Assembly (NCBI GenBank): GCA_948470475.1
Contig: OX419343.1
Coordinates: 21,319,821-21,383,820, forward strand
DNA length: 64,000 nucleotides
Direction of reading: 5' to 3'
From: Galaxea fascicularis
Lineage: Eukaryota > Cnidaria > Anthozoa > Scleractinia > Euphylliidae
The notes below the pieces were generated by a model. It worked only from the letters and a program-made list of their open reading frames with translations, searched no databases and was not told where the DNA came from. This document shows positions 20,132 through 54,089 of the stretch, in pieces; position 1 is the first letter of the stretch, and each line of letters begins with the position of its first letter. The position numbers and the translations under genes are program-made.

Positions 20132-22790
20132 ATGGATTTTAGGCTGGTCTTCTGTTCCCTCTTATTTGTAGTCGTCTCTGTGACCGCCAAATCAACACAC
20201 CGAGGAAGTAAGTTGATATATTGTTTGTGTCTGTCTTGGGTTCTATAATTTGCAATGTCAGTGCGGGATTTTACCGTATACGGGATTTATTATCTGCATG
20301 GCAAGTCGAAATCAGCATTTGTCGACTGGCCAGTGATATTATGAGTTGAAGAATTTCAAAAGAACGGACACAACAAAAAAGTAATAGAAATCGAAAAATT
20401 CTTTAACGAGGGGGGACTTTAAATGAAAAAAGTACACCATCAAATCATCATAATTCAAATTTCCATTTGAGTCGTTAGATAAAGAGCGATTCCGAACTTC
20501 TTTTCTCCTTCATAAAAGCGCGGAAAAAATCTAAATCGTTAATATTCTTTGGACAGTTCTTTTCTTTGAAAATTCTGAGTAATCATTTCTTGGTGGTAAT
20601 ACTTTGAACCAAAGTTTTACTTTTGTTTTAGGAATTTTCAGTCATTTGATTAAAAATTGCAGTTGATCTTTCAAGCGAAGTTTAACCGGACACTTGATAA
20701 TAAAATATTTAACTGAAAGCTGTTGTGAAATTGAAATCGAGATCTTCAGAATAGTATATTAATTTTTCCATGGCATGGTTTTCGGGTCAAATTGCGATGT
20801 CATAAAGCACGCTTTTTGCACACACGTTTAATTTCCCTTGGTTCTGCATGAGGTCAAGGTAAAATTTTGTCTATAGTGTCGTTTGATTTCCAGTCTACTC
20901 CTTCAGTTGCCGAATGAAAATTGCGGTCTTTTTTTCCAGACAGTTTCTCCATTAAATTTCGAAGTTAAATAAATTCTCAGTTTTACCACACGGAGTCTTT
21001 AAGGATGATGAAGTCACAAATTTTGTCAGATATTTACGTTCGAGATCTACGGCTGTTTCAAAACAGACCTGTTTCATATTATTAACAATTCATGTAATCT
21101 TTAAGTTTCCCTACATCACTTATATCACTGTTTTCAATTTCGTGCAAGCGAGATTTTGGTTTAAAAAATGGGAAACACGTCCATATTCTCGACCCGCAAT
21201 AGAGTATACTGTACTGTCTATATGGCACTTTACCATAACCCTTAAAACCTAAGATCAGAATTATAATTCTCATTTGTTGTCTCTACACATTTCCTGTAGA
21301 TCTAAAGTAGGGGGAAGCAGTTGTTAAAATATCAATCAAATTAATCTTGTGAGGTCCTGTCCTTAATTTTCGTGTTTTGTAGTTTTTAGGTTCATAGTGC
21401 CTTATAATACTTTCACTTTGCCTTTAATCTCAAAGCTCGGCAAAGTAGCAATTTTCATCGGCCCTGCTATACATTCGTTTGGTGCCGCTGGAAAGAATTT
21501 AGTAATACATCAAGACTTTGTTATTTACCTTAGCTAGTGTTTTCTTTTCCCATTACATACCTCATTACAAAAGTGTTTATTCTTAAGAGGAAAAATGTAC
21601 TTCTATAAGAACGAGATGTCAGGTGAATGAATTTGTAGTAAAATCAGAAAACGAGAGCCTTAATTTTTAAAGGCGGCCGAACGTGAGATTGGTACGAGGC
21701 ATTTTAGGATTTGCTTTGCCTCGTGATTTGCTTTTAAGTTGTCAGAGGTTTCCTTCTCTTTAATGAAAATTACGTAGCTTTTAGGCTCAAAGATTTAATT
21801 TCGCAAGAACTGACGGATGTAATTCATGTGTGTATGTCTGATGGCACTCATTTCCTCGTTTCCAGGTATTTTCAAAAGAAGTCCGAACCCATGTCCGCCC
21901 GGATGTCCCGGATCTTGTGCCCCGTCATGTACAGCGGTATGTTGTGCACCTCCACCACCACCTCCACTCCCACCTCTCCCACCACCACCACCCCCACCAC
22001 CACCTCCCCCACCCGGCCCCCCTGGTCCTGATGGTCCTATGGGTATGGCCGGTCCAGCTGGGCCCGATGGTCCCAAAGGACCCCCAGGACCTCCCGGACT
22101 TCCCGGCCCACCTGGTCTCCCTGGACTCCCCGGTGCCCCTGCTGGACCTCCAGGACGTGACGGCCCCATGGGACCTCCAGGACCCTCTGGCCACCAAGTA
22201 AGTCTTATAACTATACTGAAGATATTAAGTTTCAAGTTACCATGTTCTAGTACAAGCGCGTTTACGAACTAGATTGGACATTTTGGCTGCTGTAGTTTAG
22301 ATACGTTAGTTGAATGATGATTGACTAAAATTCGGTTATCTGCCAGTCATCATTTCAAGGTAAATGATGCATTAAGCAATATGCAAACATTTGCCTCTTA
22401 TAACTTATCACAATGGACACAAGGTTTCCCTGATTTTATTTGCGCTCTGCCCCTTTCAAGGTAGTCCGGCACTTCTCTGTTTCCTTCCTTCTCTTCTTTC
22501 ATAATGCTGTTCGCGAGTGTTGCTCACATACTGCTCCTTGGTATCGACTTCTGCTCAGAAAAGAGTTACTCGTGCGCTTAATTTAAGTTTTGACGACACT
22601 GCTCTCTTTCTTTCAGGGACCTCCCGGAGATCTCGGACCCATGGGTCCCCCAGGAGCTCCAGGACTACCCGGACCTCCAGCACCACCCGGTGGAATGCCT
22701 CCATGCCCACCCGTTTGCGTTCACACTTGCATTAAGGCCTGCGCTCCGACATGTTGCCACGGACGAAAGAAGAGATCACACCTGCAGTAA
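20132..22790 (+). CDS. Minicollagen 1 (nematocyst capsule wall protein)
   Basis: Structural protein of the stinging-capsule wall, cross-linked through its cysteine-rich domains. Exons 20132-20207, 21866-22197 and 22617-22790 give 193 residues. Order: signal peptide ([19 protein letters not shown]), short propeptide ending in the cleavage pair KR at residue 30, N-terminal cysteine domain [18 protein letters not shown] (residues 35-52; C-x3-C-x3-C-x3-C-x3-CC), polyproline, then 14 Gly-X-Y triplets. One extra alanine follows, then 13 more triplets, a short proline stretch and the C-terminal domain [18 protein letters not shown] (166-183). The tail is basic ([10 protein letters not shown]). Both cysteine domains have the canonical spacing, which fits the ancestral type of minicollagen. 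Collagen length is about twice the 12-16 triplets commonly described. Intron 2 falls between codons inside the collagen. Expression in developing stinging cells is inferred from the family. Confidence 0.95.
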
Positions 22791-30250: not shown

Positions 30251-32987
30251 ATGGCTATTGAGGTAACGCTCTTTCTGTCCATAATCCTTGCTTTTGCTCT
30301 GTAACAGAACACGTGGTTAACTTGAATTTTGGGCACCTAAATTGATTTACTGAAAACTTCGTAGCATAAATCCTTTTGCTTTCCTTCTGCAAGCACTTCA
30401 AATACTCTCCTAGATGGGGTTTTGTCATTTTACGGCTTTTAATAACCCAGTAGCAGAAACACGTTTTCCCCTGAACAGACTGATTTTTTCGAAGTATCAA
30501 ATTAATTTCAGACGAGAGTCAATCATTTTGCAGGCGATTTTTTGGGTTCTCTCTGCCCGTCATAGCATATTTGTACACTTTAATGTTGTCTTTAATGTTG
30601 GGACTTATTTGACTTTAACTTTTGAGACATGAGGACACGTCGTTATTCAATGATACCAGTATAATTATATAAACCACCCTAGTGGGCAGCCAGAAACCGC
30701 GCCTAATAATCAACTGAATTGATTGTTATACATATCTTGTTTTTATTCTAGGTCACATACTCACTTGTTTCGATCGTTCTGTTGTTTTGCATCAACATTG
30801 TCACCGCACAATACATTCCATGCCAAATCCAATCGTTCTATGCCCAACAATGCGGCTCTGGTCGAGGCAACCTTCTTCGAGTGCATTTGAGTCAGAACGG
30901 CTCTCCCACGAAACTGTCCTTCACGGGCTCTTGTGAGAAAACAACACTGAAATTTACAAGTAAGTGTACCCGTGCCTGTCTTAAAAATTAGCGAAAGAGT
31001 AGCGCCACTGCCGGAAAGTGTCGTCTTTAACTGTCACAACAACTCATCATTTGCCTTCGTCGCTATGCACAGTGATAGATCGTTGATTTCTTGGTCACAA
31101 TTTGGCTTTGAATGCGCCATGTAGGTATAAGAGCATGATTAAAAACATTCCGATTACCTAAGACTTTGTTCGACATTTTTGGACAAAGTGGGCCCTGACC
31201 TAGTTCTCTTGACAGCTTTCTTGAAAGCAGGAGTTAGAGGTAGCTTGAAACAAAGCAATAATGGAAAGTTGACCGTAGCAGTTCGAGGTAGAGTAGGATT
31301 TTACACGATGTATTGCTCGGGATACCTTGCGAGAAGAGTTCTCTTCGATCTTCCTACAACTGAAAAAAGAAAGAACGAAGGGGCCTCTGCTGCCAGGTAA
31401 TCCTCGGGAAAGCAAAGATTTGATGCAGCTTTGGTAATTCTTTCTGTATGTATAGTGTCACATGTCAGTGTTGTACGAAGTTTAATATCAAAATGGTTCA
31501 AACTGCCTTCGTATTTTTCCTCCTCACTTGACCAATCGGTCATTCTCTTTTACGTAAAGAAAGAGAACAAAAAAGGCCAAAAATAGACAGCAGTGCAAAG
31601 CGAATTACAATAAACTAGTCAGAAACATCAAGCCAGAGTCGACACAGCCGTTTGGCACACGATAAACCTTTAGAGAACAAAGATTTGCCTTACATCTGTT
31701 GCACTTTTAGTGACTGTGTATATTTTATTCAATAGTTTAGATTACGGCATTAGTTTTCTAGTGTCATTCTCTTTTACGTAGAGAGAAAGACCTTCAGTAA
31801 AAAATCGTTGTTAAGATCGGCTAGATGAACGACAATTGTACAGAATCTTCAGGTCAAAGTTGGCAAGGTTAAGAGCAATATTAACGCTTAATGTCTCTTA
31901 GGAAAACAAGGATTTGATTTATTTTCGTTGCCTTTTTGGTCGAAGACGCTCTAACACTGTGCCAATGTATCGGTTAGTGATACATCAAAATGATTCTTTT
32001 TATTTACGCGTCGTTCAAAGCTGTATTATTTTGGAAACCTGCCACTCCAAACGATTAGTTATAGTATTTAATCAACCATTTGCTAAGCCATCGTGTAAAA
32101 AGGCTGAAAGTCCTTGTTGAAGTTGGATGTGTTACCACCACAGTTATTAAATGCATCCATTATCAGTAAATCCATTGGTCTTTCGAAATAAAGCGTGAAA
32201 GAAAGCACCGAAAAGGTCCAACATAAATTGAATGCCCAGAAAGTGCTCATTATTCATACCTGGTATGCATTTATTTATCTCATCTGCATGAAAATCTGAA
32301 GAATTCATGGAAGAACGAAGGGTCATGAATGGAACAGTAACAGTGTCCATCCGCTGGGCTCAGGACCGCCGTTATGTGCTTGCAGTAAAAGAAGGCGCTC
32401 TTACCATCGAGGTAGGATTCAGTAATCTTCCCTTGCGTAACCTTGAGGAATTACTTCTAAAGAATGATCAGAAGAGGTAAAATCGAGTTACGCTATAGAG
32501 CAAGATGTGAAAGGAATGAAAAGAAAAGGAGAATCGACGGCAAAAATCTCTTTGTTGACTTAAACACAAATTTCTATACACCAGAACTTTTCTACTCACG
32601 GGGCATAAACATTTAAACGTTGCACTGTTTCTAATGCCAGACAGAAATGAGATGCCCCAGTCTCAGAACTGTTGTTTTATTTGCCTTCATGCTTCTGTCT
32701 GGTTGTTTTATTCAGTTTTATTCTGTTCTCGTGAAGGCTTCTCTTTTTCCTCCCTCCTCTAGTTTTCGCCGAAGAAAAGCTATCGGAAGAAAGCTATGAC
32801 TTCAGAAATCCACCACTGGTTTATTCTAAGATCTGCGTGCGATCGATGCTATGCAGGACTCACCAAACTGGAGACTTTATCAACACCTCATTTGTTTGTA
32901 GAGTCTGATGATTTTGGCACTGTTTTTATGGGTGTGCAGGCGAACACAAAGGCATGGTTAGAAATCGTGAGTTCTGCTTGTTCGTAA
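30251..32987 (+). CDS. Secreted beta-trefoil (IL-1-like) protein A
   Basis: I see no certain family, but the sequence reads like an interleukin-1-type beta-trefoil. Exons 30251-30262, 30752-30959, 32302-32411 and 32763-32987 join with phases 0, 1, 0 to give 184 residues. Exon 1 codes only MAIE; with exon 2 it makes a signal peptide (VTYSLVSIVLLFCINIVTA). The mature part starts QYIPCQIQSFY and holds GSGRGNLL, a trefoil-like GTVTVSIRWAQDRRYVLAVK strand pair, LTIE, HHWFILRS, KLETLSTPHLFVESDD and a C-terminal AWLEIVSSACS. These blocks line up in order with IL-1beta features: YLSCV, LQLE, RFVFNKI, LEFESAQFPNWYIS and FTMQFVSS. Six cysteines remain after the signal peptide. Protein B on the minus strand at 40.4-44.3 kb has the same exon plan. 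FGF-type or another secreted trefoil is the main alternative. Gene model is sound; the fold is inference. Confidence 0.8.
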
Positions 32988-32999
32988 GCATTGCTTCTC

Positions 33000-35870
33000 G
33001 TCACAAAAAAGTGCGTATAACTGAAACGACACAAGTTAATTTGGTATTACCATAGAGTACATTAGTCCATCCATTTGTCTCCCAAGACTGTCAGGGGAAA
33101 GTGTGTAAACCGCAACGTTTAATTTGTAATGGTAACTGAACTCAGTGGAGTGCAATTTGATTTGAAATCGGCATACGCGTGATTTCAAAATCGAACTGAG
33201 CGCGCAGCGCGAGTTCAATTTAAAACAACAAGTATGATTTCGGACCAAAATTGCAACGGACACGAAGTTCAATTAACACTTTATTACACCCATTTTGAAA
33301 TCACACAGTCTTTTGTCCATATAACTATTATTTAATACCCACTTCAGGAATCCCGGTTTTGAATTTTGATAGGCTAAATATAAGATGCAGTTAGGAGCAT
33401 CAAAATAGTGCACTTTGTGAGTAAATTGCACTTTTGAGAAGCAACCAGATTGCAAGAATATCCAGTGATTTCAAAATGGTTGAAATAAATAGAGTCATTC
33501 AATCATTTCCGTAGAAATGAAACTTAATGTCAGAATGGTCTTTTTGGTTATCGTCGTTTATCAAACTGTGGGTAAAAATAACAGTCCTCGCTACTCTAAA
33601 ACCTTAAGCTTTTTCTTCCTTTTCTTTACTTTTTCCCAAGCGAAAACCATACTGATATTGCTTAAGTTGGGTCAATGAAATATAATATAATGGGTTAGTG
33701 TTGAATACTGAAAAAGTGATTTCAACAACACAGTCTTGACTTTGTGTCAGGTTTCGTCATTTCGTAATTCAGTAATGAGAGTAATAACCAACTTAACACG
33801 ATTTGTTTTAATTCAGCCATTGACAAAATTTAACCAAAAAAAATCTGTAGCCCGAAAAGTCTTTTAAAATTTATATCCACAGTTCTAAATCTAGGTAATT
33901 ATCCATAATTCCAGATTTGTCTTTTTGGGATTGACTTTGAGAGACGACTAGCAAAACAAGTGATGTTAAGGTGAATCCAAAACAAAAAGCAAATTTCCAC
34001 AGCGCCTCGTTGAAGTGACAGAAAATGAATGTCGTATATTTAAACTGAGCGGGCAGATTGTCCGTGTCCCGTGAAGTTGTTGCGTTGTAGTCAGGCCTAT
34101 ATTGAAAAACTAGTCGGCATACTGTTTTACATCTGATGCATAGCCACAAAGAGGATTAATGACATTTCATACAGCTTTGATAACGCCTGTCGTGAACTTA
34201 ACCTAAATATTTTGCCACACCTAACAAGCTGGAAAATTAACAGAGGAATCGGTCAACGTAGACTTGCTATCGATAATTTTCGTGTTACCGCATTTCCTCT
34301 GCTTTTTTTTTTTTTTTTGCAAGCAATTCTTTAAATTTGTTGCGACTGTTTGGTGGTTGTTTCACTTCCAACTTCCAACTTGGACGTGCTACACCTCAGT
34401 GGGTCGTACATATTCTATTCTTTTCATTTCATCAAGGGCCATTAAACTATGAGATAGGAGTGTATTTGGAATTATCCCTTCTGCTAGCCTTTTAAACAAA
34501 ATACCGTGAACATAAATGTGAAATGTCTAAAGCAGTTTCAAACTTCTTACTGAACTTCTTACCTTACCTAGCACTTAGCCACTTTTCGCTGAAACCTTGA
34601 ACAGTTACTCGCTGAGCCTTTTTCTCCGTCAGGTTTACTTGGTTTACACAAAACACCCGGCAGGGTGTTAAGGTGTTTCTAAAATTAATTACTTTGAATC
34701 AAAATAATCGACTGAGCGATGTTTTCGCATCCAATCAAAATTTAGAAATGCGGTCACCAACCGGAAAGCGATTGTTGTTTTACTGGTGACAAATTTTAAA
34801 GCTGGTGATTACTTTAACTCGCTTTGTGGGGACGATAAATCTGTCTTGAGCAAAAACAAAATGTTAACTACAGCTGCAGGCAAATAGCAATCCACAACGC
34901 AGATTACTCCAACAAAACAGTTTTTTTTTTCATCACTTTGCAGTCACCGGCTTTAACAAATTAGCTGTCCACAGGCTTTCGCAAGATAACCGGTAGAAGC
35001 CCAAACTGTTGAAAGACTGAGAATCTGCTGAGATTGTACGGGTAAAGCGTGACAAAAAAGGGGAAGGGGGGAGGGCGAGCCTTTAACGAATAACCCAATT
35101 CATTAGTCGTTAATTTGATTCCTATCTGTTTCTGCTTTTTCTAATTTCAGTATGTAGTCTAAATAAATAACACCTTTCGTGATCCTCGTTCGCCGAGTTT
35201 CGAGACATGAGAAGTTCTGCTTTTGAGAAAAGTTGGTTAACCCAGCAATGTGTGCCATTAAACAGGTACCTGTTGAGAAAAACTTTACGGTCGAGTTGAA
35301 GCTCGTTCGCCGAAATGTTCCCACTCATGAGTAAAGAATGCCAAACATGTTGTAGTTGGTGACATTGCCCAGTTTCTTTTTTACGTGTGCACCCTTTTTA
35401 TTTTTAGCGTTATTTTGCTTATTTACGTCTGTTTCTTTTCCCGTCAGTTCATACTATTGCATTTCTCGGTATTCGATTGACCTATAGTGGAACCAAGTCC
35501 TCAAGCCATGAAAGCCAAATACTACCCGCTCGAAGTAAATTTTTGGGCCGCACAACCTGCTACGCAAACAATGGAATCGTTTCGTCCCCTTTCAATATGA
35601 CGTAATATCGGTCAAAATGCGCCAGCACGTAGACCGCCGCAATTTGAGAGGTCATGGGTGCGCTTAACACAATTGATAATAACAGACGATATAAGAAGCC
35701 AATTTCAGTAGTTATAACACCCCACTGAGATTATCGATCGTTCGAGTTCTCTACAATGTTGCTATGGAATGCTTGATCAGTTTCGATGCTCTACCAGCCA
35801 GCTGAAGCGTTAAAAGACCAGATGAACCAAAAGATGAAGTAATTAATTATTCAGCACATTCAGACGTTTA
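33000..35870. other. Intergenic between trefoil-like A and minicollagen 2
   Basis: No gene supported. AATAAA at 33484-33489 is a candidate poly(A) signal for the trefoil-like gene A. The sequence is AT-rich and its short open frames have no features. Confidence 0.5.
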
Positions 35871-35879
35871 AGGCCCTGA

Positions 35880-35922
35880 AGTTGAAAGACGCGAGCCACA
35901 ATTCGCAGACAGCTTTGCTAAG
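35880..35922 (+). promoter_or_regulatory. Possible 5' UTR exon of minicollagen 2
   Basis: A strong donor, GCTAAG/GTAAGG, sits at 35922/35923. The start codon at 37051 lies directly on an acceptor (TTGTTGTAG/ATG), so minicollagen 2 must have an upstream non-coding exon, and this is the best candidate. TATAAG occurs about 230 bases upstream. The left edge is arbitrary. Confidence 0.35.
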
Positions 35923-37050
35923 GTAAGGTATTAACGTAACACTTTGCCCTTCTTTTTTATTGATTTAATTTTCTTCCTTCTGGCGTTTTTGTCTGCCCTT
36001 TGAGATTAGTTTACTTTAAATGTTATGACAGACGTTCATTGACTTTGTTTGTAAATTTTCTTGTAGTTCTAATGGTATTATTTTGATCATTTTGAGGTTA
36101 TTTATATGGGATAAGCCACAAGCGAAAAAATATTTTTATTCATAATTTGTTTATATCCCCATTTTATCTATGAACACACATTTCCAAAACAAATGAAACT
36201 TCAGACCCGCAGTGAATTTGTAACACCAGCTTTGACCACTGTATTTATTATTGTCATTTTCGCGTTTATTTTAGCGTTAAAATTTATCTCTAAACAGATT
36301 CTAACACCAATGCATACTCATTCATAGATTTTATACTCTATAATCGATAAACACGGTTATAACGATTAAAAACGCTAGGATAAGTTACTTTCTCGCAACA
36401 TGTCAGAAATTCCGTAAGCCGGTATCCTTTTTTAAGTGAAAATAACGAGCGAAATATTCTATCTCCTTAGCGTGTCCTTACCTTCGAATTAAGTTGACTG
36501 GATGTTCCTTTATTTGTTCGTTTAGAAATTCAAGTTACATTGTTAAGGGCAATGAAATGAAAATATTTAGACTTGCGAACTGAGTTATCGTATTCGTATT
36601 TAGATGCACATATTAAATTTGCACTTACGAAGAAGTTGAAAATTGGTTTCTTTTTTTCCAAACTGACTGCCATTAAAGCGGAGAAAGTTCCTAAATCTCT
36701 TCAGTTTTTGTTTTAATCTTTATTTATTTATTTATTTTAATATACTATAGAAGGAAATATCAGGGTATTAATGAATTTTGTAAGGTATCACCTTATCTGC
36801 CGCTCTGACAGCGTAACATCAAAACTATCAATACTTTCTAAGCCAATTGACCACGGGAAAAAATGCATTGTTAGCTGTGGAAACTACAGCACACGGCAAT
36901 GCAAATTTCTCCCAGTTCATATACTCCGTAATGTGTTTACTTGATAATTTATCAGTGTACGGAGGGACAAGATGCTATATCAGCTAATGGAAATGGTCCA
37001 AAGCGACTTCAGGCAGATCCTGACACTGTTTGTTTTTCCTTTTGTTGTAG

Positions 37051-39310
37051 ATGCAGGGTTTATTATTGGTGTTGGGTTCCGTTCTTTATATCTGCTCTTT
37101 CGCCTCGGCGACATCACTCGGTAAGCTTTGGCAGCACAATTACGTTATCGCTTCATCAGTTATTAACTAGGTAACATGTTTTCTCTTCATATAAGACATC
37201 CTTGAGAGTTTTAAGCATCTTGTTAGACAAAATTTTAAGTCAAGAGAAAACAAAAAGCAGAATTCGATTGCCAGGAACTAGTCTGTCCAAACCACCACCA
37301 CTATAACTTGCTCATAAATTTCGTTGTAAACAAAAAGAATTATTGATGAGCACACAAAACATTCAGTGTTAACAAGTACAGAGTCAGTTTTATCAACAAA
37401 CAACCGAAATCTCAGTTGTTTCAAAGCCCAGCAATAAATTCAGAACGTATTTTCAATCGCACAACATTCAGTTGATTGATAGATGAGGGGACCGTGTCGG
37501 TTATTTTCATACAAGAGCAGGTCTTAATAGCACCACCAGTTGTTGTTTTGTTATGACCAGCCTCTTGTACTGTTTGGAAGGCTCTGCTTTGTCTTGTTGT
37601 TGGAAAAGTTTATATAGTAGCTCACAGTTTACTCAACAGATAGTCTTTCTTTAGCGAATCCGTCAGCCTTTAGAAAAAGCGTCTTAGGATGACCGGTATA
37701 GAGTTCAGTCATTGGTCCAAGAAAAAATACCTTTCTTAAATACTTACTAACCGAGAGTGGGGTGTTTATGGGAAAATGTCAAACTGAGGCCTTGCCTTAT
37801 CGCTCGGTAATATACAGCAAGGCCGAGGTTGTTAATTTTTTTGTTGTATGACTTAAATATAAAAACATTTAAAAGTTGTTTTTTTTATCATAATTCGTAA
37901 TTGGCCCGTAGGCATAACGGAAGAATAAGGCCCTAGCACTTAGCCAATCAGAGTGTGTTATGTCAGCTACAAGGCATCAGCCATGTAATACTGAAGTTGG
38001 TTGAATCCCGATTGTATGTTTAACTAGGTATCAGTGCGGTCCCCGTAACTCAAATAAGTGACTACTCAAATTACGAAATTGAGACACTTCGTAATTGTCG
38101 ATTATTATCTTCAATTTTTGTGTCACTAGAGTTCGAGACATGAGTTGTTGAGTAAAACGTTCGCTGTCTAATTGAAAGGTTTCAATAAACAACTGCATTC
38201 CAAAAGTGTTATTTCTTTTTCTTTTTCCTTTTTTTTTTTTACCAATTTCGTAATCCTAATCTATCTAGCACCTTCCAAACTAGCCCAAAACACCCTTTTC
38301 AAGCTGCGAAAAAGCATATTATGTACAGCTCAAAGCTAACTTCATTGCTTATTTTCAGAACACCTCCGGCACTACAAAAGAAGTCCCAATCCTTGTCCCC
38401 CAGGATGTCCCGGTCACTGTGCCCCATCGTGTCAAGTAACATGTTGTTCTCCTGCACCTCCACCGCCGCCACCTCCTCCACCACCTCCTCCCCCGCCTCC
38501 TCCTCCCCCTCCTCCCGGTCCCCCAGGTGTTGATGGTCCAATGGGACTACAAGGGCCTCCAGGACCAGATGGCCCTAAGGGACCACCAGGAGCAATCGGT
38601 CTCCCTGGCGCTGTTGGATTACCGGGTCTTCCTGGAGCACCAGCTGGTAAATTCATTGTTGTCGTTGTTTCTCATCTAAGGATTTCCTTAGCTTGGAACG
38701 GTCGCAATCTAATTCAAGTACACGTGTCATTGATTGATTACCAGACCGTATATAAGTTAAAAATTTTAAGACGCCGGAATATCAGAAAACACAACTGAAT
38801 GAAGCGAATCTCTAATGCTTGAAAAAGCGACGGAAACAAATTGCCTGAGTTGTTTTCCCTTTAGTTTAAAAATTTAAAAAATGAGTAAAGCTATTTTCGT
38901 AGTTTCCGTTTTGTTCCCTTTTGCTTTTGTTTATCATCATTATATGACCTTGCACATTTATTCAACAGGCCCTCCCGGACGTGATGGACCCATGGGACCC
39001 CCTGGACCTCCCGGCGGTCAAGGCGCACCTGGAGATGCTGGACCACCCGGTAAAATATCTTCTCGTAATTTCTTTGTTCCTGAGTTTTCCCTGGTGAAAG
39101 TGTCTTTCCTTATCCCGGTAATCTAACGATATGTTCATTGAAATCAAAGCATTCTAGCCTAACGAGTTTGCTTTGCTTTGTTACGTAGGACCCCCAGGTC
39201 TCCCTGGTCCTGCAGGTCAGCCAGCTCCTCCCGGCGGTCCCGCCCCCTGCCCCATGGTTTGTTCCCACACATGCATTCGATCCTGTCCGCCGCCATGTTG
39301 CCGTCGCTAA
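37051..39310 (+). CDS. Minicollagen 2 (nematocyst capsule wall protein)
   Basis: Paralogue of the minicollagen at 20.1 kb. Exons 37051-37120, 38359-38646, 38969-39049 and 39189-39310 give 186 residues. The start codon is the first triplet of its exon. Order: signal peptide ([20 protein letters not shown]), propeptide ending KR at residue 31, N-terminal cysteine domain [18 protein letters not shown] (36-53), and a polyproline run. Then come 14 Gly-X-Y triplets, one extra alanine, 13 triplets, a short Pro/Gly stretch and C-terminal domain [18 protein letters not shown] (167-184), followed by RR and the stop. The extra alanine after GAP is in the same place as in minicollagen 1. The collagen is interrupted by two introns, both after the first base of a Gly codon, whereas the copy at 20.1 kb has one intron at another site. 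Both cysteine domains are canonical. Confidence 0.95.
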
Positions 39311-39433
39311 TGCCTGATATGTCTGACAGCGGCTTTGTTGTCGACGTCGCCAAATTTTAAAGACATACCGCCTGTGCGCGGCTTTGTTGCTTTAGTTTGT
39401 TGCAGTTTGAGAATGTAGCTTCGTTTTTTCACT

Positions 39434-39439
39434 AATAAA
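39434..39439 (+). terminator. Poly(A) signal of minicollagen 2
   Basis: AATAAA about 125 bases after the stop codon. Confidence 0.65.
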
Positions 39440-40001
39440 ATGATTTGTCAAAAACAACGACTTGGTTCTGTGACATTTTCAGAAGAAATAACTAGCAAAC
39501 CTCACAAAAGTAACGCCTAGTATTGCAGATTTTGATTCATACAAGTGAACTGTGCGAAACATCCAGTAACTGAAAGAAAACTCGTATGTGTTTCAATTTC
39601 TGTTGTAAACAAGAATTTAGATCCTTGCAGCTGTATATACACTAAGTACTGCAAAATGCAACAAGACGAACAATATCCTTGAATAAAAATCATTAATAAC
39701 GCTCTTATTACAACAAACGTCACTCTAATCAACAGTTCGTCTATTTTCTCTTTTATTGACCTCAAGGCGATCGAATAGGGCAGGTTTTTAGATTCTAACC
39801 TTTATTCCTAAGACTACTGCTGCAACCTCGTTCCTACAGCTGCTGTTACCATTGCATACCCCTTCTCCTTATGGCACATTATTCTCCTGACTTACTAAGT
39901 GTTGTGACGACTCCATTCAAGGACTATAATCAACTGTCGATCAAAATAATAGTTTCGCTGAAAGCTGGTATGGATGTCGTTGTTGTCGGTGTTGTTTTTT
40001 G

Positions 40002-40007
40002 TTTATT
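40002..40007 (-). terminator. Candidate poly(A) signal of trefoil-like B
   Basis: AATAAA on the minus strand, about 380 bases after the stop of the gene at 40.4-44.3 kb. Confidence 0.4.
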
Positions 40008-40386
40008 GGTTGTGTTGGTTCTTCGTCGACAATTAGGGGCTGTTCTTGCGCTTTCCACGGCCAGAGCAACCACTTGACTCTCAAAGCACCAAAAATGATT
40101 CAAACTTTGAAAAGTGGTCATTGCACTTGTAAAATACCGTCAGTTTTTCTCTGTTTTAGTCATGGGAAAGGGTCTGATCAACCGCAAGCGAAACTATTTA
40201 ATGTATAAATGTGAGTCGACATGTATATCTGATCTGATGCTTTGTGGACGACTGATGCTGTCTACAATTCTATGGTATCGATCCTGAATCTGCAATGTTT
40301 CTCGCTACGTGTGCCAGTGTACAGGGTGAAAATGTACTTTGATGAAGTTAAGGGGTGAACTAATAGAATGTTTAATATCCTTTGCT

Positions 40387-43300
40387 TCAATGATCGCACG
40401 CATCGAGGCTAAGAATTTTAAACCATGTGGTCACATCCGGATTCCTGCCTACCATTGGTCGGCCAACATAATCTGTTTTGATGTAGAAATGAGATAACAC
40501 ACTTTTCAGGGTCCTTTGGGGATTACAGCTGGCCGTAGCGCATTTGAATATGAATTCTTGGTGACGATGAAGCCGGGATTTATGCTGCAAAATCAAAGAG
40601 GCATTGTAAACATGTCTTCTAATGTTGTTTGGTTGGTAGAATCATATATTTAGATGATAAAATCTGCCAGGATTGATTCACTCTTGCTTTTAAGATAGTG
40701 TTGGAGACTTTAGGTAAAAGAGTGTTGAAAGGATCAGATCGCCATTAGATCGCCATTAGATCGCCCCCATCCCCCATCCCTCAGTCTATAATGCGTATCT
40801 TCCTTTTAAGTTCGCCTCTACATGGTCCCTTGCGTTTCTTAGGGACAGTGAGTCGAAGATATGCACACATCGTAAAATGCTGGTGTCACTCGCGTTGCTA
40901 TGTTGAAGAAAATTGAAGGCCTACAGACTAGTTGAAGCTTCAGAGAACATCTTACCTCTATTTGCAGGCTCCTATTTCTAATTGCTACCACATAGTCTTT
41001 GTTTGCTCTCCAATAGAAACTGACTATAAGCGATCCTTTGTTGTCCGGGCTCTTGGACATAACGAATTCTGAAATAAAAAAAAGAAAAAAAAGAATTTGC
41101 CAACATTTTACGGTGGTTTTCCATTGACAGCCGAAAATTCCTTGGCCAAACTCGCGCCACTTTTTCAACCAATCAGAGGCATACTCGCACACTTAAATCG
41201 CGGTTAGTTACTGACTATATATGTTGGTTGCAAATCCTGGTTTGCCTGTTGTTTTGCATTTTTACGTTGGTTGTGGTTAGAAAACTTATTCCCCTCGTTA
41301 TAGTTGTTGTTTTTATTTCGTTTTCGAGCTTTTGCCTTTTGAAAATGTGAATCTTGTGGGATGTGGCTTCGAGTGACAAGAATACCACACAAATTAATTT
41401 GCTTAGGCAAGCTGAAAGCCACTTATAGGGCACTATGGCCACGTGGTAGCGGGCATTAGTATCCTTTGAGTGGCTTTCAGCTTATACCTAAGCACATTGA
41501 TTTGTGTGGTATTGTTGTTTGTTTGCTTTACTGTTTTATAACAGTAACTTGAAAATCGCTAAGTCGTGTCTACCTCTTTTAGTTGCTGAGTCATTGCATG
41601 TAGCAGTGAATGTTAAACCGCTTGGTGTTATCACAGTTCCGTTCAACTGGACCTCCTCGACACTAAGAAGATTCCCAGATCCTGCTGTTCCACTGCCAAC
41701 CACCTCTCGGTAAAAAGACTGAATGAGACAAAAGACCGTCTGTGGCTTTGCAGTACAACAGGATAGAACAGTCACCAACATAAGACTTAAATACACCTGA
41801 AAAAGGAAGCATCGTATTCAACTATTGACAGGGACATGTTCAACACTTTACAGATTATATTGTGTGAGCAATTTACTAAACAAGTTAGACTTCTTTCCAA
41901 CGCTAAGAAAACCAGTGAAATACCACTAAGGGAGGTTAAGGTGGAAAGCTCTATGTCTGCATTATCAAAGAGATCAAAACTTGCCTCAGCTTTGGTCGCC
42001 CCGTCATAACCCAAGCTTTAACTCTCAAGGTGCTGAAATTCTGTGCATATATAGAGACAGTGAATTTCATATCCCCGCTTTTATTACTATTAACTATGGA
42101 AAGCATTCTCTAAGATATCAGGGACCTCACATATGGTAGAAACCAGATAATGAATTGAAAAGTTCCCTGAATATCGAATCATTCAAAATTAAAGAACATT
42201 AGGAAAAAAGACCTAACGTCATTTCTGCACCACAACAATAGTTGTTGTAACCTATGTAATTCTTAAAGACTACCATTAATATGCCTACTGTCTTATGTGC
42301 TACTTATACATACATTTTACTGATTGACTGCAGATACACTTCTTTTTTATCTATTTAATTGTAAATAATTTTAACTTTTATTTTTCTTGTCCCCAGTTAA
42401 TAGTAAATATAGATTGAGTCTTTGAACCGTATGGGCCTAGTTATTCGAAAGCCGATTTAAGCTAACACAACAACAACAATTTATTTTATTAGTAACTCAA
42501 CCAGCTTAAGCTAGTCGAGACGGGATATATGTACACATAGTAGAATCGATAAATTGTTAAAAGGAATAAATTACCCATTTACAAGCGAAAAGAAGAAGAA
42601 TAGAAAGAAGGAGAGAAATGTAGAGTAATTACAGAAGTAATGAAATAAGTAGAAGCTACAACAGTTTCCCATATTTGTCTACTTTAGAAAGAAGATAGGC
42701 TGCGTCACCATAAGCCCCCATCAGCATCAGAAAGTGCAAACTTTCCTCAGTGAAGGCACGATTAAAGATTAGCCAAGGTTTTCATTTTGTTTGTTCAGGA
42801 TGTTTTTAAAAATAAATTGTAAGTTTAAGGTAAAGAAACGTCTATGTTAAAACGTATGGGCGAAAACTTTAAAAAACATCGTTATAGAATGGTTACTACT
42901 GACTGCAATCAAAGTTCACATTAACCTTGGATTAGTATAATCTGAGCCCTGATTTTGCCTGCTACCCAATGACATGCAAAAACATACGAACCTTAAGCCT
43001 TAACACAAGCAAGGAAGGTTTGAATGCCGGCTTAATGCTGTGCGTCGTTACCATCAAATCGGTATATTTAATTGTTTTCGAAGTTATTTTAATGCTTCGT
43101 TATGATTACCTTGATCGATAGCGGATCGGGTCATTCATCTTTAACTGGCAAAATAACCCATTCTTTTTAACGCGTTTTCTATTAACATTGTTTCTTAGCA
43201 ATCAGAAAAAGTCTGAAACTAATGATCAAGTCTTTTTTTTTTTTTTTAACAGATCAGAGAAAAGCTATTGATATGAGGTCCAATTCATGTGGGCCAGAGA

Positions 43301-44292
43301 AATGAGAAGCCGTAATAATCAGCGTAAATCTACTGAGCGTTAAAGCGTAATTGGCTACACTCTTTACTGCCTATCCGTGCTCACACTGCAAATTAAATGT
43401 TCACTAGCAAAAAGATTTTTCAACGTAAATGGACATGTCATTGGGGAATATGGACAGTCACGAGTTACTCCAAAACAATTAGATTAATGACCCTTGCGTT
43501 CCCTTGCATGTTAATTGACTCGAAAGATGTCATTAGCTCTTATTGGCTTTCTTGCTCTAAGAATAGAAACGTTATTCCCTCATTAGCACTTTACGCCTGT
43601 AATTAAAAGTCATGAAATGGCCATTTCAACACATCGTGAGTGTAATCTCGTTTTTTTTTCCGCACTGATCAATAACCTACAAGATAATTCTCAGATATTC
43701 TGGTAAATTTCTTTCAGTGGGGAAAAGTAGACTCCTTTTTCTAGAACATCCTTTAATAAAAGTGAAGACTCTTCTGGGGTGAACTTGGGAAGTATTAATT
43801 TTAATTTCATTTTCTGTAGTTCCGCACCCTGTGACACCACGATAATAATTCCTAAAATGTCTTACGTTCCCCGAGCAATAAAGTTTTTTTTTTCTTGACG
43901 AAAGCAAAATACAGTGGGAATTGTCTTCAACCCTTTCACTCTCACGAGATCAATATTGATTCTCCTCACTATCTGCCATGCATACATGGGTTATAATGTT
44001 AGTTCGGAGAATTATTCCTTAGTTCATTTTTTCTTTATTCTCATTAACTGTCTGGTTGACAAAATCATGAAATTGGTAACTCCTGGGAGTGATCAATAAG
44101 CCGACAGTAGCAGTGAAATCGAGTAAGCTAATTGCTTTTCTCTTTCAGTTTCTTTTTTTCATAGTACTTCAATTGCATGTTAATCTGACTGACTTGTGAT
44201 AAACAACAAACTGAAACACTATCATTATAGAACCAAAATAACGCAAGCATTTCAAAGAAATGTACCTGGCAAGACACGACGCTTCTCTTCAT
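40387..44292 (-). CDS. Secreted beta-trefoil (IL-1-like) protein B
   Basis: Paralogue of protein A (30.25 kb) on the opposite strand. Exons, in transcript order, are 44292-44266, 41796-41574, 41068-40956 and 40584-40387, with phases 0, 1, 0 as in A, giving 186 residues. The start at 44292 is chosen because MKRSVVSCQ joined to VYLSLMLVTVLSCCTA forms a good signal peptide and the phase fits; it depends on a 2.5-kb intron. The mature part shares CxIQSFY, GSGxxGNLL and the strand pair SLIVSFYWRANKDYVVAIRN. The last exon starts right after LQIE, as A does after LTIE. It contains EFIFKC, SHFYIKTDYVGRPMVG and WFKILSLDAC, matching A's HHWFILRS, PHLFVESDDFGTVFMG and WLEIVSSAC. Five cysteines follow the signal peptide. 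The order of these blocks is that of IL-1-family trefoils; FGF-like or another trefoil cannot be excluded. Only moderate identity to A suggests an old duplication. Confidence 0.78.
41377..41520. mobile_element. Foldback element in trefoil-like B intron 2
   Basis: Arms AATACCACACAAATTAATTT...AAGCTGAAAGCCACT and AGTGGCTTTCAGCTT...GATTTGTGTGGTATT are inverted copies of about 48 bp around a spacer of about 45 bp. Confidence 0.7.
42460..42570 (-). repeat. (GTT)n-tailed repeat, minus-strand copy
   Basis: Read on the minus strand, CCCGTCTCGACTAG is followed by AATAAATTGTTGTTG. It resembles the copy at 2534-2715 and lies in intron 1 of trefoil-like B. Confidence 0.4.
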
Positions 44293-48672: not shown

Positions 48673-49771
48673 TTAATTGGACTCGACCTTCAGATAAACC
48701 CCATCTTTAGGAGACAGCGTGTTTCCTGCATGCATGACCATGGGCACTTGGGTGTCTGGGGATCGCACAAATTTGTACTTCATCAGGATTTTCACCAAGG
48801 CGATCTTGATTTCCATCAGGGCAAACCTCATCCCAATGCAGTTCCTTGGCCCGGCTCCGAATGGCAGGAACTGATACGGGTGACGTGTATCTTTGGCAGG
48901 GCCCTCGAATCTCTCGGGATCAAATTTCTCCGAGTTCTCCCATGCGTCCGGATCGTGGTGGAGAGCGTAAAAGGGTATGATGATCTCTATTCCTTTGGGA
49001 ACTGGGATGCCATTGACTTTGCAATCTTCGGTACACTCGCGATTGAGTTGATGTGCTGGAGGATACAATCGCTGAGTTTCGCTGATGACGCAATCCAGGT
49101 ATTCGATACCGTGCGATATCTCATATAACGAAGCCCCAGGAACCTCCTCCACCTTTTGACGGATCTCTTTTCTCAGCTTTTCTTGTATTTCTTCATTTAG
49201 AGCCAAGAGATAGGAGACGGTGGAAAGAGTAATCATCGAAGTTTCGTGTCCACCCAACAAAAATGCCACGCACTGTGCGACGATTTCCCCATCCGTGAGT
49301 TTGCTGCCACCCTGAGCGGTAGACTCATCGTGGGCAGTCAGCATTAGCTGCATAAGATCCTGTCGTTGATTGTCGCCTTGCTCTCGACGTTGATGAATCA
49401 TCTCCATGGCAATCTGACCGAAATATCCCATACTTCCTCTCAGACGCATTCCTACGCGAAAGAGGGTTTTGAGGATCGGCAAGCGGCCAACAATGCGTAA
49501 TATGAAGGGAAAACGAAAAGACTCTCTGGCTTTTTTAAGAAACTTTTCGTCTGGATCAGTTTGAACTTCTGCTTTGATACCGAAAGCCGTTGAGAGGATA
49601 ATTTCTAAAGTAAGGCTGCTGTACCAGTCCATGAGGTTAACAGACTTGCCTGCGACAAAAAAAAAAGTAAAACCTAAAAAAGACTGATTGTGTCGACGCT
49701 GTTGCACAAAACACTGATCAACCCTTTCGTCATCCCTGTCCTCTAACTTTAGGAGACAGCGTGTTTCCTAC

Positions 49772-49851
<80 letters not shown>

Positions 49852-52800
49852 GGGCTTTAGGTAGAAGGCCCTAAATGCCCTCCGTCCTTCTTCAGGTATC
49901 ATCCGCAATCCTCACTTCCGGCATTTCTGAGCAAGCGCTAACGAAGAACAACAACAAGAAAGCCACCATGTTGGATCACCAAAGAGAAGCCAACTGTCGA
50001 GGCAAAGATGCAAGGAACGTCTCTACTTCATGACTATTACGAGCATTATCTCATACATTTTGCATACTGCAGTTAGTGGATTATCAGCTCTTTCATTTTT
50101 CTATGCATAAGTTGTCATAAGTTTCATCTGTAATCTTGTACCTTCGCATGTTGTACACGTTGAAAGCGTCATCCAACACAAACAATGTTCCATGTACTTG
50201 AACATGCGTTGCATTAAAGAAAACAAAGCAATTACCCTGTACATAATCAGCATGATGCTGTAGTGAAAATAAACTGGAGGCCATACTGGCCTTCACTCGG
50301 CCTTCCAAGTGACAATTGGACATGTTGGAAATTGCAGTTTGCTACTCATTGATTCACACGCACGGCTGTAAATATAATTCACAAACTTATAATTACCATA
50401 ACGAGATCTGAATTCCTTTCTAAATTTTATTTTCACTTCGGTATCATGTTGATAATTTTGCAAGTACATTCAATATTGCTTGATGTGTTGAAGGAAAGAT
50501 TTCCACACAGCCCATACATTAATTATCCACGTATCACTGTCATACCAACCCTGTTTTTTTTTTTTTTTTTTCATCTTTATTTAAAACACGGAATCCCATT
50601 GACAAAATGCTCTTCCAGAGAGCCGTGCAAAAATCATGCAATAAAACAGTATAAGCTAAATATAATAATTACAATTCTGCTAAATTACAAATGTGAGATA
50701 AAAGATTTCAGGCTTGTATGCTCCTAATCGAATTAATTTGAAAGACTATTCCAGAGAACCACCCCTCTATAATGGAAGCTGCTTTTACCAGCCTCAGTAT
50801 ATGGTCTTGGTACAAACAAATTATGTTTTGAGTTTCTTAGATTATAGGAATACATAGAGTTTGTACTATTAAAAGTTTGAGCCAAATGATCTCGTGCAAT
50901 TTGATTAATTCAAACATTATTGCGGCTAATTGCCTTTTCCTTCGTGTCTCAAGGTTATCCTACCCAATTAAGTTAATCCAATATCTTAACAGATCGTCTA
51001 TCATAATTAGAGGAGGTGAACACCCGGGCAGCTCTGTTCTGTAGGGTCTGGAGTCTGTTACACATTCCTTCCCCGCAGCTTCCCCATACTATACTACAAT
51101 AATAGAAACATGGTAAAACAAGGGAGTTGTACATCGTAATCACTGTGTGATTAGGTACGAGATGCCTTACCCGTCTCAAAACTCCGATCCCTCCAGAAAT
51201 TTTCTTAGCAATTTTGTCCACATGAGCACTCCAAGTCAATGATTGATCAACTTCAACACCAAGATATTATAAGTCTCGTCTCTGCTAAGGCGTTTGCAAT
51301 CGACTTGAATATTAAATTGGTGCTCTTGGTGTTTTATCCTGTATTGTTCCAAAAATGAATAGAGTTTGAGTCACAAAATGCATGCATAATTAATGTCGGG
51401 GCTGTGAAGAAATCTTGTCCAAGTTACCAACATCTTCGCTTTGATGCATGGCTGGACGTGGCTTCTTCACTGACAAGGTGGCCTTCTTGTTGATATTCTT
51501 CGTTAACGCTTGCGCAGAAACGCCGGAAGTGAGGTTTGCGGATGATACACGACGATGAAGAGGAACGGAGGCCGCATTTTTAGACTCGGGCCTTCCACAG
51601 AAGTCCGAATAAATATAGAGGGGAATTCAGATCCCGTCATGATAAGGCTATGTACAAAAATTATAATTTCAACTGTGCATGTGAATAAGTTGTTAGTTGG
51701 GTGGCGGCAAAGGTTAGGTACGTATAATACATCCCCTAATCCCACGATCGATGATAACGCTTATAAAACAAGTAAAATGAATAAAATCTTTGGGAGTACA
51801 TATAGAAGATAATCTTTCATGGAATGCCCACATCTGGCATTAGAGCCCTGAAGCGCTGTCGGCCTTTTGTTCCTCAGACTGCGCTGCAGTCTATTTACAA
51901 TGCCTTGATTCAATCTCATTTTGACTACTGCAGTGCGGTCTGGGGGCATTGTGGCACTTCTTTGGCAAATAAGCTTCAAATATTGCAAACCCGTGCGGCT
52001 AGTATTCTAACCCTCTCTAGTCACGATTCTAGTCATGACCCCTTGATTTGAACAACTAGACTGGAAAAGGTTAGATACGTAACGTCAAATTCAAGAGGCC
52101 GTTATGGTCTATAAGTCGCTAGATGGCCTTGCTCCTAATTATCTTAGCTCTCTTTTCACTCAAAGAAATATCTATTATAATTTTAGGGCCAATGAGAACA
52201 AAGTGGTTATTCCACTGCCCCGCACTAACCTCCTCAAAAACAGTTTTAGGTACAATGGTGCGATCATCCGCAATAGCCTTCCCCGGGAATTGCGGTAAAT
52301 TTTGGAAGGGGCTGTCACAATTTTTTTGCTTGACCATCTATACACGGCATTCTTGTAAAGGAGGTTTATTAATTTCTTGGGGGTGGGATAATTTATACAT
52401 ATTTTAATATTTTAGCTTTTTATTACAAGGAATTTGATACTTTTAGATAGATTTATATAGCTTGTAGTGTTGTCATACCTGATGAATACACCGTGTCTAA
52501 ATGAAGTTATTCCTTACTTAGTTACTTACTTACTTAGTGAAGTAGCAAATTGCAAGTGATTCCCGAAATCATGTAAACAGTTGCAGGACCGAGTGAAGGC
52601 CAATATGGCCTCTAGTTTTTTTGCAAACAATCTATATTTTAGAAAAACATTCCTTGTTCACAGCCATTCAGGCCAATTCCAGGGGCGGATCTAGGGGGGG
52701 GGGGGGGGGGGGGAATTGGGTTGCTAGAAGTCAACCATAAAAATCTAATACGTGACAATAAAGGAAATACATGCATGGGTCCCAAAAAATATAGTATAGT

Positions 52801-54088
52801 TTGGTGGCCGACTGTATCAACCACCCCCCATTAAAAAAACCTGGATCCGCGCCTGTCTTCAAAGCGGCCTCGGCGGACAGGTTCAAAACATCCTTATTTA
52901 ACACCTGGTAAGGTTTCCCAATGCAAATGACTATCGATATCAATTAATCGATGACCAATCGTTTGCGAAGATGCGTGTGGTTATCGATTGGTCTCCATTT
53001 TCAGTAACAATCGATAGAACGTCTAGCGTAGACATAATGAGTACATTTAAACGGAGTATATTCTTTGCGTTGAGAAGACTGGGTCGGAATTGTTTTACCA
53101 ATTTCGTCCCCAGGGCTCCCTAAAAAAAGGCTGATGAACCGCAGAAAGCGTGCGTGATGTCTGTTCCAGGTTGCTGTGTCAATCGATAGCTATTGAATAA
53201 CGGTTTTAGTGTGGTTATCGATTGATCATCGATTGACCGATACCAGTCAATACCAATTAACTGATTTTATTGATTGATCAATTGGCTTTCCAATCATCGA
53301 TTACGCGGGATTTTAACCTCGCCGATTTCGCGGCTCGGTATATATCCATCACCATTCACCTCCACTTCGGTGAATTATAGTTAACTAGGGTTTCATCTGG
53401 GGCTTAAATCACAATGAGGTTTGGTGATACAATCATTACATGCTACGCCTACGGCAATAGTTATCACCGGGCTCGACTGTAAAGAAAAAAACAACTGGAT
53501 ACGTTACGGTCAAGTTGGTTTGAAGTAACAGGGCTACGAGACAACATATTGTGTGATTTACTTTCGCTTACCAGTGTCAGCTATTCCTTCAAACTTCTTC
53601 AGCAATACGTCACACGACTCTTCAATCAATGGAACCATTAGCTTCATTTTTCTCGCGCTGAACGAGGGCGTCAGGATGTTTCGAATACGCTTCCATGTTT
53701 CGTCGCGCGCGGAGAAAACGTTCGCACTCATCGGTGGGGGTGGGAGTGGAATCATACGATTATGAAACGACGAAAATTCCTTGACCATAATCGTTTTCAA
53801 CACTTCTGGGTCCGCGACGACAAGAGAAGGCTTTCTCCCAAGGGAAATGGCGAAAATTTTCCCATATAGCTTCACGAAATCGAACATCATCAGGTGAATA
53901 CTACCGTATCTGCGTACATCGAGAAAATTCCCGACAAAGGGCAGTGGTTTTGGTCCCGGGACGTTTAGTCGCTTCAGCGTTTTGAAACCGCTTGTTCCAT
54001 ACCAATAGATGAGTAACAACATTGTGATTGCCGCGGAAAAGACGACACAAGGATCCCAAGGACTGATTAGATGCTGAGTGATCGTCAT
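48673..54088 (-). CDS. Cytochrome P450, CYP3-clan type
   Basis: Haem-thiolate monooxygenase, expected on the ER membrane. Two exons, 54088-53572 and 49649-48673, join in phase 1 (codon G/GC, reading IADTGKSVNLMDW) to give 497 residues, the usual P450 length. Visible in order: an N-terminal membrane helix (VVFSAAITMLLLIYWY); proline-rich hinge VPGPKPLPFVGN; helix C WKRIRN; I-helix GGHETS with the acid-Thr/Ser pair; ExxR as ETQR; PERF; and the haem-binding loop PFGAGPRNCIGMRFAL with the ligand cysteine. The end KDGVYLKVESN resembles CYP3A and thromboxane-synthase-like enzymes. No stop or frameshift is seen, so it is probably functional. The substrate cannot be told; cnidarian CYP3-clan members are usually linked to xenobiotic or lipid metabolism. 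The 3.9-kb intron is filled with transposon remains and a cluster of ATCGAT sites near exon 1. Confidence 0.93.
49747..49769. repeat. 23-base copy of the P450 3' coding end in its intron
   Basis: TTTAGGAGACAGCGTGTTTC within this stretch is identical to plus-strand 48,705-48,727, which codes the GNTLSPKD region of the P450. It abuts the TTA run. The identity stops at both ends. Confidence 0.6.
49774..49850. repeat. (TTA)n microsatellite
   Basis: About 25 perfect TTA triplets. Confidence 0.95.
49856..51594. mobile_element. Element with about 115-bp inverted ends in P450 intron
   Basis: 49,856-49,970 and 51,474-51,594 are diverged reverse complements. For example, CACTTCCGGCATTTCTGAGC faces GCGCAGAAACGCCGGAAGTG, and ATCATCCGCAATCC faces GGTTTGCGGATGAT. 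The 1.5 kb between holds a minus-strand reverse-transcriptase remnant, so this is either a composite non-autonomous transposon or a nested insertion. Confidence 0.6.
50730..51239 (-). mobile_element. Non-LTR retrotransposon RT C-terminus, minus strand
   Basis: The minus-strand frame reads WSAHVDKIAKKISGGIGVLR and includes FYYCSIVWGSCGEG and LQTLQNRAARV, hallmarks of the C-terminal part of CR1/L2/jockey-type reverse transcriptases. After a frame change it continues with SYNLRNSKHNLFVPRPYTEA and VVLWNSLS. Broken and 5'-truncated. Confidence 0.85.
51690..52540 (+). mobile_element. Non-LTR retrotransposon RT C-terminus, plus strand
   Basis: Frames that shift at least twice read KLLVGWRQRL, then GVHIEDNLSWNAH, then FDYCSAVWGHCG and LQILQTRAASI, and finally VYKSLDGLAPNYLSSLF and RNSLPRELR. 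This is the same RT-end signature as the minus-strand relic at 50.7-51.2 kb but a different copy. A CTTA-rich tail ends near 52,535. Inactive. Confidence 0.85.
52680..52855. mobile_element. MITE-like element with poly(G)
   Basis: Imperfect terminal inverted repeats CAGGGGCGGATCTAGG and CCTGGATCCGCGCCTG, with a run of about 19 G just inside the left end. Confidence 0.55.
52933..53301. promoter_or_regulatory. Cluster of eight ATCGAT sites in P450 intron
   Basis: ATCGAT occurs at 52933, 52947, 52983, 53010, 53182, 53217, 53228 and 53296, with further ATTGAT and ATCAAT variants between. It begins about 270 bp downstream of the P450 first exon in transcript direction. Onecut/Cut-type homeodomain proteins bind such sites. 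It may be an intronic enhancer or a diverged repeat. Confidence 0.4.
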
Positions 54089-54089
54089 T

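Follow-up and report, generated by a model that had tools for sequence, protein, structure and literature searches.

A 64,000-nucleotide stretch of the genome of the stony coral Galaxea fascicularis (assembly GCA_948470475.1, contig OX419343.1, forward-strand positions 21,319,821 to 21,383,820; hereinafter the window) encodes two genes, designated here gene A and gene B, that belong to a real coral protein family which so far has not been described. With modest confidence, we interpret the members of this family as small, basic, secreted, probably disulphide-stabilised beta-trefoil proteins that most likely function as extracellular ligands of cell-surface receptors. The family is possibly related to, or convergent with, FGF and IL-1, and "IL-1 in a cnidarian" is a possibility.

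Gene A (30,251-32,987, plus strand; 184 amino acids) and gene B (44,292-40,387, minus strand; 186 amino acids) each consist of four coding exons. The coordinates given in the initial annotation were reproduced from the sequence; GT-AG dinucleotides are present at 6 of the 6 introns, and both genes show the phase series 0, 1, 0. The exons are as follows (E is the expect value obtained with the family profile; homologues are denoted P0001 to P0020).

30251..30262, plus strand: gene A exon 1, ATG and three codons, followed by a GT donor, phase 0; predicted, the least certain part.
30752..30959, plus strand: gene A exon 2, with the hydrophobic leader, the CQIQSF and GSGRGNLL blocks and putative strands beta1-beta3; E 6.3e-29; homologues P0003, P0004 and P0008-P0010.
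32302..32411, plus strand: gene A exon 3, of 110 nt, running from phase 1 to phase 0 with the putative strands beta4-beta7 and ending in LTIE; E 1.5e-13.
32763..32987, plus strand: gene A exon 4, putative strands beta8-beta12 and the C-terminal Cys, with the stop at 32987; E 7e-24.
44266..44292, minus strand: gene B exon 1, nine codons; predicted.
41574..41796, minus strand: gene B exon 2, with the hydrophobic leader, CLIQSFY, GSGTAGSGNLL and putative strands beta1-beta3; E 5.2e-23; homologue P0001.
40956..41068, minus strand: gene B exon 3, of 113 nt, running from phase 1 to phase 0 with the putative strands beta4-beta7 and ending in LQIE; E 5.1e-12; contiguous with exons 2 and 4 in P0001.
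40387..40584, minus strand: gene B exon 4, putative strands beta8-beta12, the C-terminal Cys and the stop; E 3.8e-25; joined to exon 3 in P0001.

The CxIQSFY and GSG..GNLL motifs, as well as the C-terminal blocks, are present in both proteins as originally claimed; the two sequences are 31% identical over 192 columns (E 5e-21) and, judged by this comparison, are paralogues, each with a hydrophobic leader, which upholds the description of a secreted paralogous pair. When the family profile was compared with the six-frame translation of the window, exons 2-4 of both genes were recovered (E 6.3e-29 to 5.1e-12) as the sole matches above the threshold, the first exons being too short for the profile. 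Splicing of gene B is corroborated by P0001, which is 99% identical to the gene B protein and comes from a 1000-base contig; its open reading frame runs across the positions of introns 2 and 3 (505 and 371 nt) within these 1000 bases and therefore must derive from spliced sequence. At window positions 40372-40389 (minus strand), the two sources differ: in P0001, a Trp takes the place of the gene B stop, and the protein continues for another four residues. For gene A, an upstream exon is needed because a stop lies directly upstream in the frame of exon 2. A Val codon immediately follows the exon 1 junction in both genes, and in protein comparison a Val occupies the place read as matching this junction in P0002, P0008, P0011 and P0012; other homologues, P0003, P0004 and P0013 among them, are not readable with a Val at the junction. 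The pyrimidine tract at the acceptor of gene A intron 2 is weak, yet the homologues continue across it as predicted. Spurious or unrelated open reading frames are ruled out by the homology of the two genes, the wider family and the spliced contig.

Three overlapping protein searches (with 2, 5 and 19 proteins among the matches listed) yielded 20 distinct homologues, including LOC144665018 from Oculina patagonica and OS493_002139 and OS493_002137 from Desmophyllum pertusum, both Scleractinia of the suborder Vacatina, so that the attribution of the pair to a cnidarian was borne out. These searches reach proteins that share 5-residue words with the query, and the profile search scored 7995 candidates. 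In a tree of 13 proteins (the window pair plus 11 homologues; nine other matches, which are fragments or fusion and read-through models, were left out), subfamily A (7 proteins, including gene A) is separated from subfamily B (6 proteins, including gene B) with support of 100/100 for each. Desmophyllum pertusum carries one A-type and one B-type gene on a single contig of 8,124,112 bases, with locus tags two apart; therefore, from the sequences, the A/B pair looks older than the split between the Desmophyllum and window-species lineages.

The gene predictions themselves are informative with regard to the intron positions. P0014, P0015 and P0018 (...KFS followed by SKL), P0016 (...KFT followed by SK), P0007 (...FT followed by GK), P0019 (...FT followed by RKF) and P0020 (...FT followed by SKF) all run from exon 2 into intron sequence, diverging at the place of the phase-1 intron 2 of gene A, with residues that fit the first base of a codon plus GTAAG. 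P0017 contains an insert after TLVVK that starts with VR, as expected for a retained phase-0 intron 3. From these protein letters, we infer that these homologues have introns at the gene A positions concerned. The prediction P0006 continues from gene A exon 4 into sequence that carries an F5/8 type C domain (PF00754); the join is probably an artefact of gene modelling.

If the leader is cut three positions ahead of the first conserved Cys (a chosen cut), the mature domain of the two window proteins comprises about 158-160 residues; for the family, the mature mass is about 17-19 kDa. Across 11 proteins (the two from the window and 9 homologues), the mature isoelectric point (pI) is 8.4-9.95, each sequence contains at least one N-x-S/T motif, and Cys residues at position 4, at 41-49 and near the C-terminus are kept in 11 of 11. 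Because the termini of a trefoil lie together, a disulphide between the first and last Cys is plausible.

The fold was addressed by AlphaFold modelling followed by Foldseek comparison. For the P0003 model, all 50 listed PDB matches are trefoils by our classification, with IL-1beta first; for the weaker P0001 model, the top three listed matches are IL-33. FGF accounts for 1 of the 50 listed Foldseek matches of P0003 and for 3 of 50 in the VIA list, where FGF matches are slightly weaker than those of IL-1 and tied with them by the rule of the tool. Trefoil lectins (R-type and others) are among the fold matches with a tied Z, and Bombyx lipoproteins are present as well. No fold class besides the trefoil stood out in the VIA list of 50, which re-aligns only the matches found by Foldseek, and a BFVD search gave no informative match. 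Taken together, these results support, without proving, the beta-trefoil as the most likely fold predicted for the family.

The placement of exon 3 in the models agrees with this assignment. In P0003, exon 3 corresponds to residues 77-113, and the model strands 78-85, 88-95, 101-106 and 109-114 fall inside it, with a single residue protruding; in P0001, it corresponds to residues 70-107, with strands 71-77, 83-89, 92-100 and 103-108 inside, again except for a single residue. Exon 3 thus appears to encode trefoil strands 4-7, a supported assignment provided that the trefoil prediction is right.

We take the corresponding intron site to follow ...TLQLE in human IL-1beta and ...LLAS in FGF2, with the respective exons holding strands 4-7. 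The published gene structures, all drawn here from excerpts of the cited papers, show a similar plan. In IL-1beta genes, the twelve strands are encoded by the last three exons according to the text (the last four according to the legend), and the phases of the last three introns are 1, 1, 0 (PMC4880838). The exons of pacu IL-1beta measure 74, 34, 73, 181, 168, 137 and 541 nt, with a 5' untranslated region of 76 nt (PMC7687281); these lengths give phase 1 at the start and phase 0 at the end of exon 6 (137 nt) and place the beginning of exon 7 at codon 198, with the IL-1 signature (231) lying 33 residues further on. In FGF5, exon 1 contributes 364 coding nt, and exon 2, of 104 bp, likewise runs from phase 1 to phase 0 (PMC2754481). 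In both coral genes, exon 3 is flanked in the same way by introns of phase 1 and phase 0; the order of phases in their last two coding introns matches IL-1beta and FGF5 alike, so it is not specific, and the intron plan cannot choose between IL-1 and FGF because it is common to both.

The intron sites were also compared by globally aligning the mature window proteins, with the introns unused, to 9 IL-1 and 11 FGF sequences under three scoring settings (results are given in that order) with 400 shuffles each; a landing was counted within two residues of a reference intron site. Of the reference sequences, IL-1beta and FGF2 were checked; the targets are related and not independent, and the P values are uncorrected. 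On the FGF sequences, intron 3 of gene A lands in 8, 6 and 9 of 11 (P 0.005, 0.015, 0.0025) and intron 2 in 7, 6 and 8 of 11 (P 0.012, 0.012, 0.005). On IL-1, the counts for gene A are 5, 5 and 3 of 9 for intron 3 (P 0.017, 0.020, 0.12) and 2 of 9 in every setting for intron 2 (P 0.24-0.29), and for gene B, 5, 3 and 2 of 9 (P 0.032, 0.082, 0.25) and 1-2 of 9 (P 0.23-0.57), respectively. Under a circular-rotation null for intron 3, gene A gives P 0.015, 0.015 and 0.082 on IL-1 and 0.0075 in all three settings on FGF; for gene B, the values are 0.076, 0.13 and 0.23 on IL-1 and 1.0 on FGF.

Several results weigh against the interpretation of the family as trefoil ligands akin to FGF and IL-1. The models are poor, with a mean predicted local distance difference test score (pLDDT) of 46 for P0003 and 37 for P0001, and neither model has a Foldseek PDB match with E<=0.001; in the case of P0001, 33 of the 50 listed matches are not trefoils by our classification. 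On the FGF sequences, gene B lands in 0 of 11 for intron 3 and in 1 of 11 for intron 2; altogether, the predicted sharing of intron sites offers fair support for gene A and weak support for gene B, and does not differentiate IL-1 from FGF. Scans of the two window proteins and 8 alignment members with an E limit of 10 listed neither Pfam IL1 (PF00340) nor Pfam FGF (PF00167); at E values above about 0.1, the HMMER filters remove the majority of matches. In HHalign comparisons, local and global, of the coral profiles with profiles of IL-1, IL-18, IL-33, FGF, trypsin inhibitor, hisactophilin and fascin, the best probability was 1.4%, to the trypsin inhibitor.

The remaining sequence searches yielded similar results. 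The HHalign probability of the coral profiles against IL-1 is at most 0.5%, in a comparison of low power given that the same IL-1 profile assigns only 2.7% to IL-33; as positive controls, this profile detects IL-18 with 92% and FGF with 33% (19% in the reverse direction). A HMMER search of the coral proteins with IL-1 and FGF profiles gave nothing above threshold, and a PDB sequence search returned weak unrelated matches for single proteins and none with the profile of 8. Overall, the Pfam scans, PDB sequence search and profile-profile comparisons pointed to no known family. Signature patterns, applied to 9 proteins, matched at 5-6 of 9 positions for IL-1 (shuffle P 0.37-0.99) and at 3-4 of 8 for FGF (shuffle P 0.72-1.0). 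Filing the family as an IL-1 or FGF member was rejected on the negative outcome of the Pfam and signature searches. The IL-1 membership implied by the initial annotation accordingly was not upheld, and its title, "interleukin-1-like", goes beyond the data; its broader wording, secreted trefoil ligands ancestral or convergent to IL-1/FGF, still describes a possible relationship. Neither a clear non-trefoil fold nor a best profile match to another family, the outcomes that it had named as contrary evidence, was observed, with models too poor to exclude another fold.

Among the alternatives, divergent FGFs and true IL-1 ligands are narrower forms of the favored interpretation, such that their probabilities overlap with it. 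The family could be a coral offshoot of FGF in which the FGF signature has disappeared and whose members work through FGF receptors. With FGF, the coral proteins share the leader peptide, a basic pI (compatible with FGFR and heparan sulphate binding, of which it is no test) and the short middle exon from phase 1 to phase 0, the 110/113 nt of exon 3 being nearer to the 104 bp of FGF5 than to the 137 nt of pacu IL-1beta, and the introns of gene A land best on FGF sites. The gene B introns miss these sites, there is an additional intron near the start codon, the cysteine set is their own, the Pfam and signature searches are negative, and FGF is rare among the fold matches; we regard this origin as unlikely.

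True IL-1 superfamily ligands, implying pre-vertebrate IL-1-like cytokine signalling through cnidarian Ig-TIR receptors, are about equally doubtful. The top ranks of both PDB fold searches are taken by IL-33 and IL-1beta, and the phase-1 and phase-0 introns near the end of the coding sequence are those of IL-1beta, although FGF has the same phases. Most IL-1s lack a leader peptide, whereas the coral proteins have one, along with conserved cysteines, and show no pro-domain, no IL-1 signature above the shuffle level, no detectable sequence similarity to IL-1 and, in a comparison of low power, no profile match to it. IL-1R-like Ig-TIR proteins are reported from Cnidaria in the excerpts of PMC9020223 and PMC5094078, but the latter cites views that these receptors arose independently. 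Less probable still is the most specific version, namely a secreted two-member IL-1-type cytokine family that descends from a common FGF/IL-1 ancestor, has kept the exon for strands 4-7 and provides the ligands of cnidarian Ig-TIR receptors.

Alternatively, the proteins might adopt a coral-specific, beta-rich secreted fold, in which case the fold matches would be mere noise caused by the low quality of the models. The pLDDT values below 50, the lack of a match at E<=0.001 and the non-trefoil matches of P0001 are compatible with this explanation; the uniform fold class of the P0003 matches, the IL-33 matches at the top for P0001 and the exon boundaries that bracket four predicted strands in both models argue against it, and we give it a small probability.

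A comparably small probability applies to a secreted protein of trefoil or another beta fold that acts locally, for example as a nematocyst, mucus, lectin-like or skeletal-matrix component, rather than as a signalling ligand. Two minicollagen-like genes, at 21823-22272 and 38340-39126 (both plus strand), adjoin the pair, the latter lying between genes A and B, and for this reason a nematocyst role is kept open. They encode a CxxxCxxxCxxxCxxxCC block, poly-proline and a short collagenous segment (matches to Pfam Collagen with E 3.6e-8, 9.3e-6 and 1.7e-4, of which the two weaker ones do not reach the curated cut-off), a pattern that we take to be that of minicollagens. The fold matches to trefoil lectins with a tied Z point in the same direction. 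However, the QxW motif, which we take to be the mark of R-type lectins, is absent from both window proteins and occurs once in 2 of the 20 homologues, with no repeat in any of them.

Other features of the window include open reading frames for cytochrome P450 at 48673-49767 and 53558-54115 on the minus strand (PF00067, E 1.4e-79 and 2.2e-21), probably exons of one gene; a Kazal-type domain at 1486-1752, plus strand (PF07648, E 6.1e-6); and fragments resembling retrotransposon reverse transcriptase/endonuclease, recognized by eye, at 50973-51266, minus strand, and 57502-57822, plus strand, the latter without a Pfam match.

Excerpts of the literature place IL-1 ligands in vertebrates. According to a 2022 review, IL-1 ligands were not found in invertebrates, IL-1R-like receptors were found, including in Cnidaria, and the receptors preceded the ligands (PMC9020223); the IL1 gene is described as missing in invertebrates and jawless vertebrates (PMC9382457), and a survey traces IL-1 ligands to the earliest vertebrates (PMC12108812). 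Convergence of trefoils is held to be reasonable (PMC5861070). PMC4090809, PMC7144542 and PMC11797021 contributed no decisive point. Among the matches listed in a search of mostly open-access literature, by titles and the starts of abstracts, none deals with an IL-1 or trefoil cytokine from a cnidarian.

The role of an extracellular ligand is ranked first because the family includes a secreted, basic, glycosylatable paralogue pair with a cytokine intron plan and, probably, a cytokine fold. Under this interpretation, the coral proteins would be secreted via the leader, presumably with disulphide stabilisation, and would bind cell-surface receptors as FGFs and IL-1s do, the receptors being either Ig-TIR IL-1R-like proteins or FGFR; the resemblance to FGF/IL-1 may reflect common descent, with convergence as the alternative. 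A secreted, probably trefoil coral family with the FGF/IL-1 intron plan offers concrete ligand candidates for the orphan IL-1R-like receptors, and it could link FGF with IL-1 through a single gene in their ancestry. If the IL-1-type reading is true, the IL-1 ligand-receptor system would predate vertebrates; even without a signalling role, genes A and B represent an undescribed family of secreted coral proteins.
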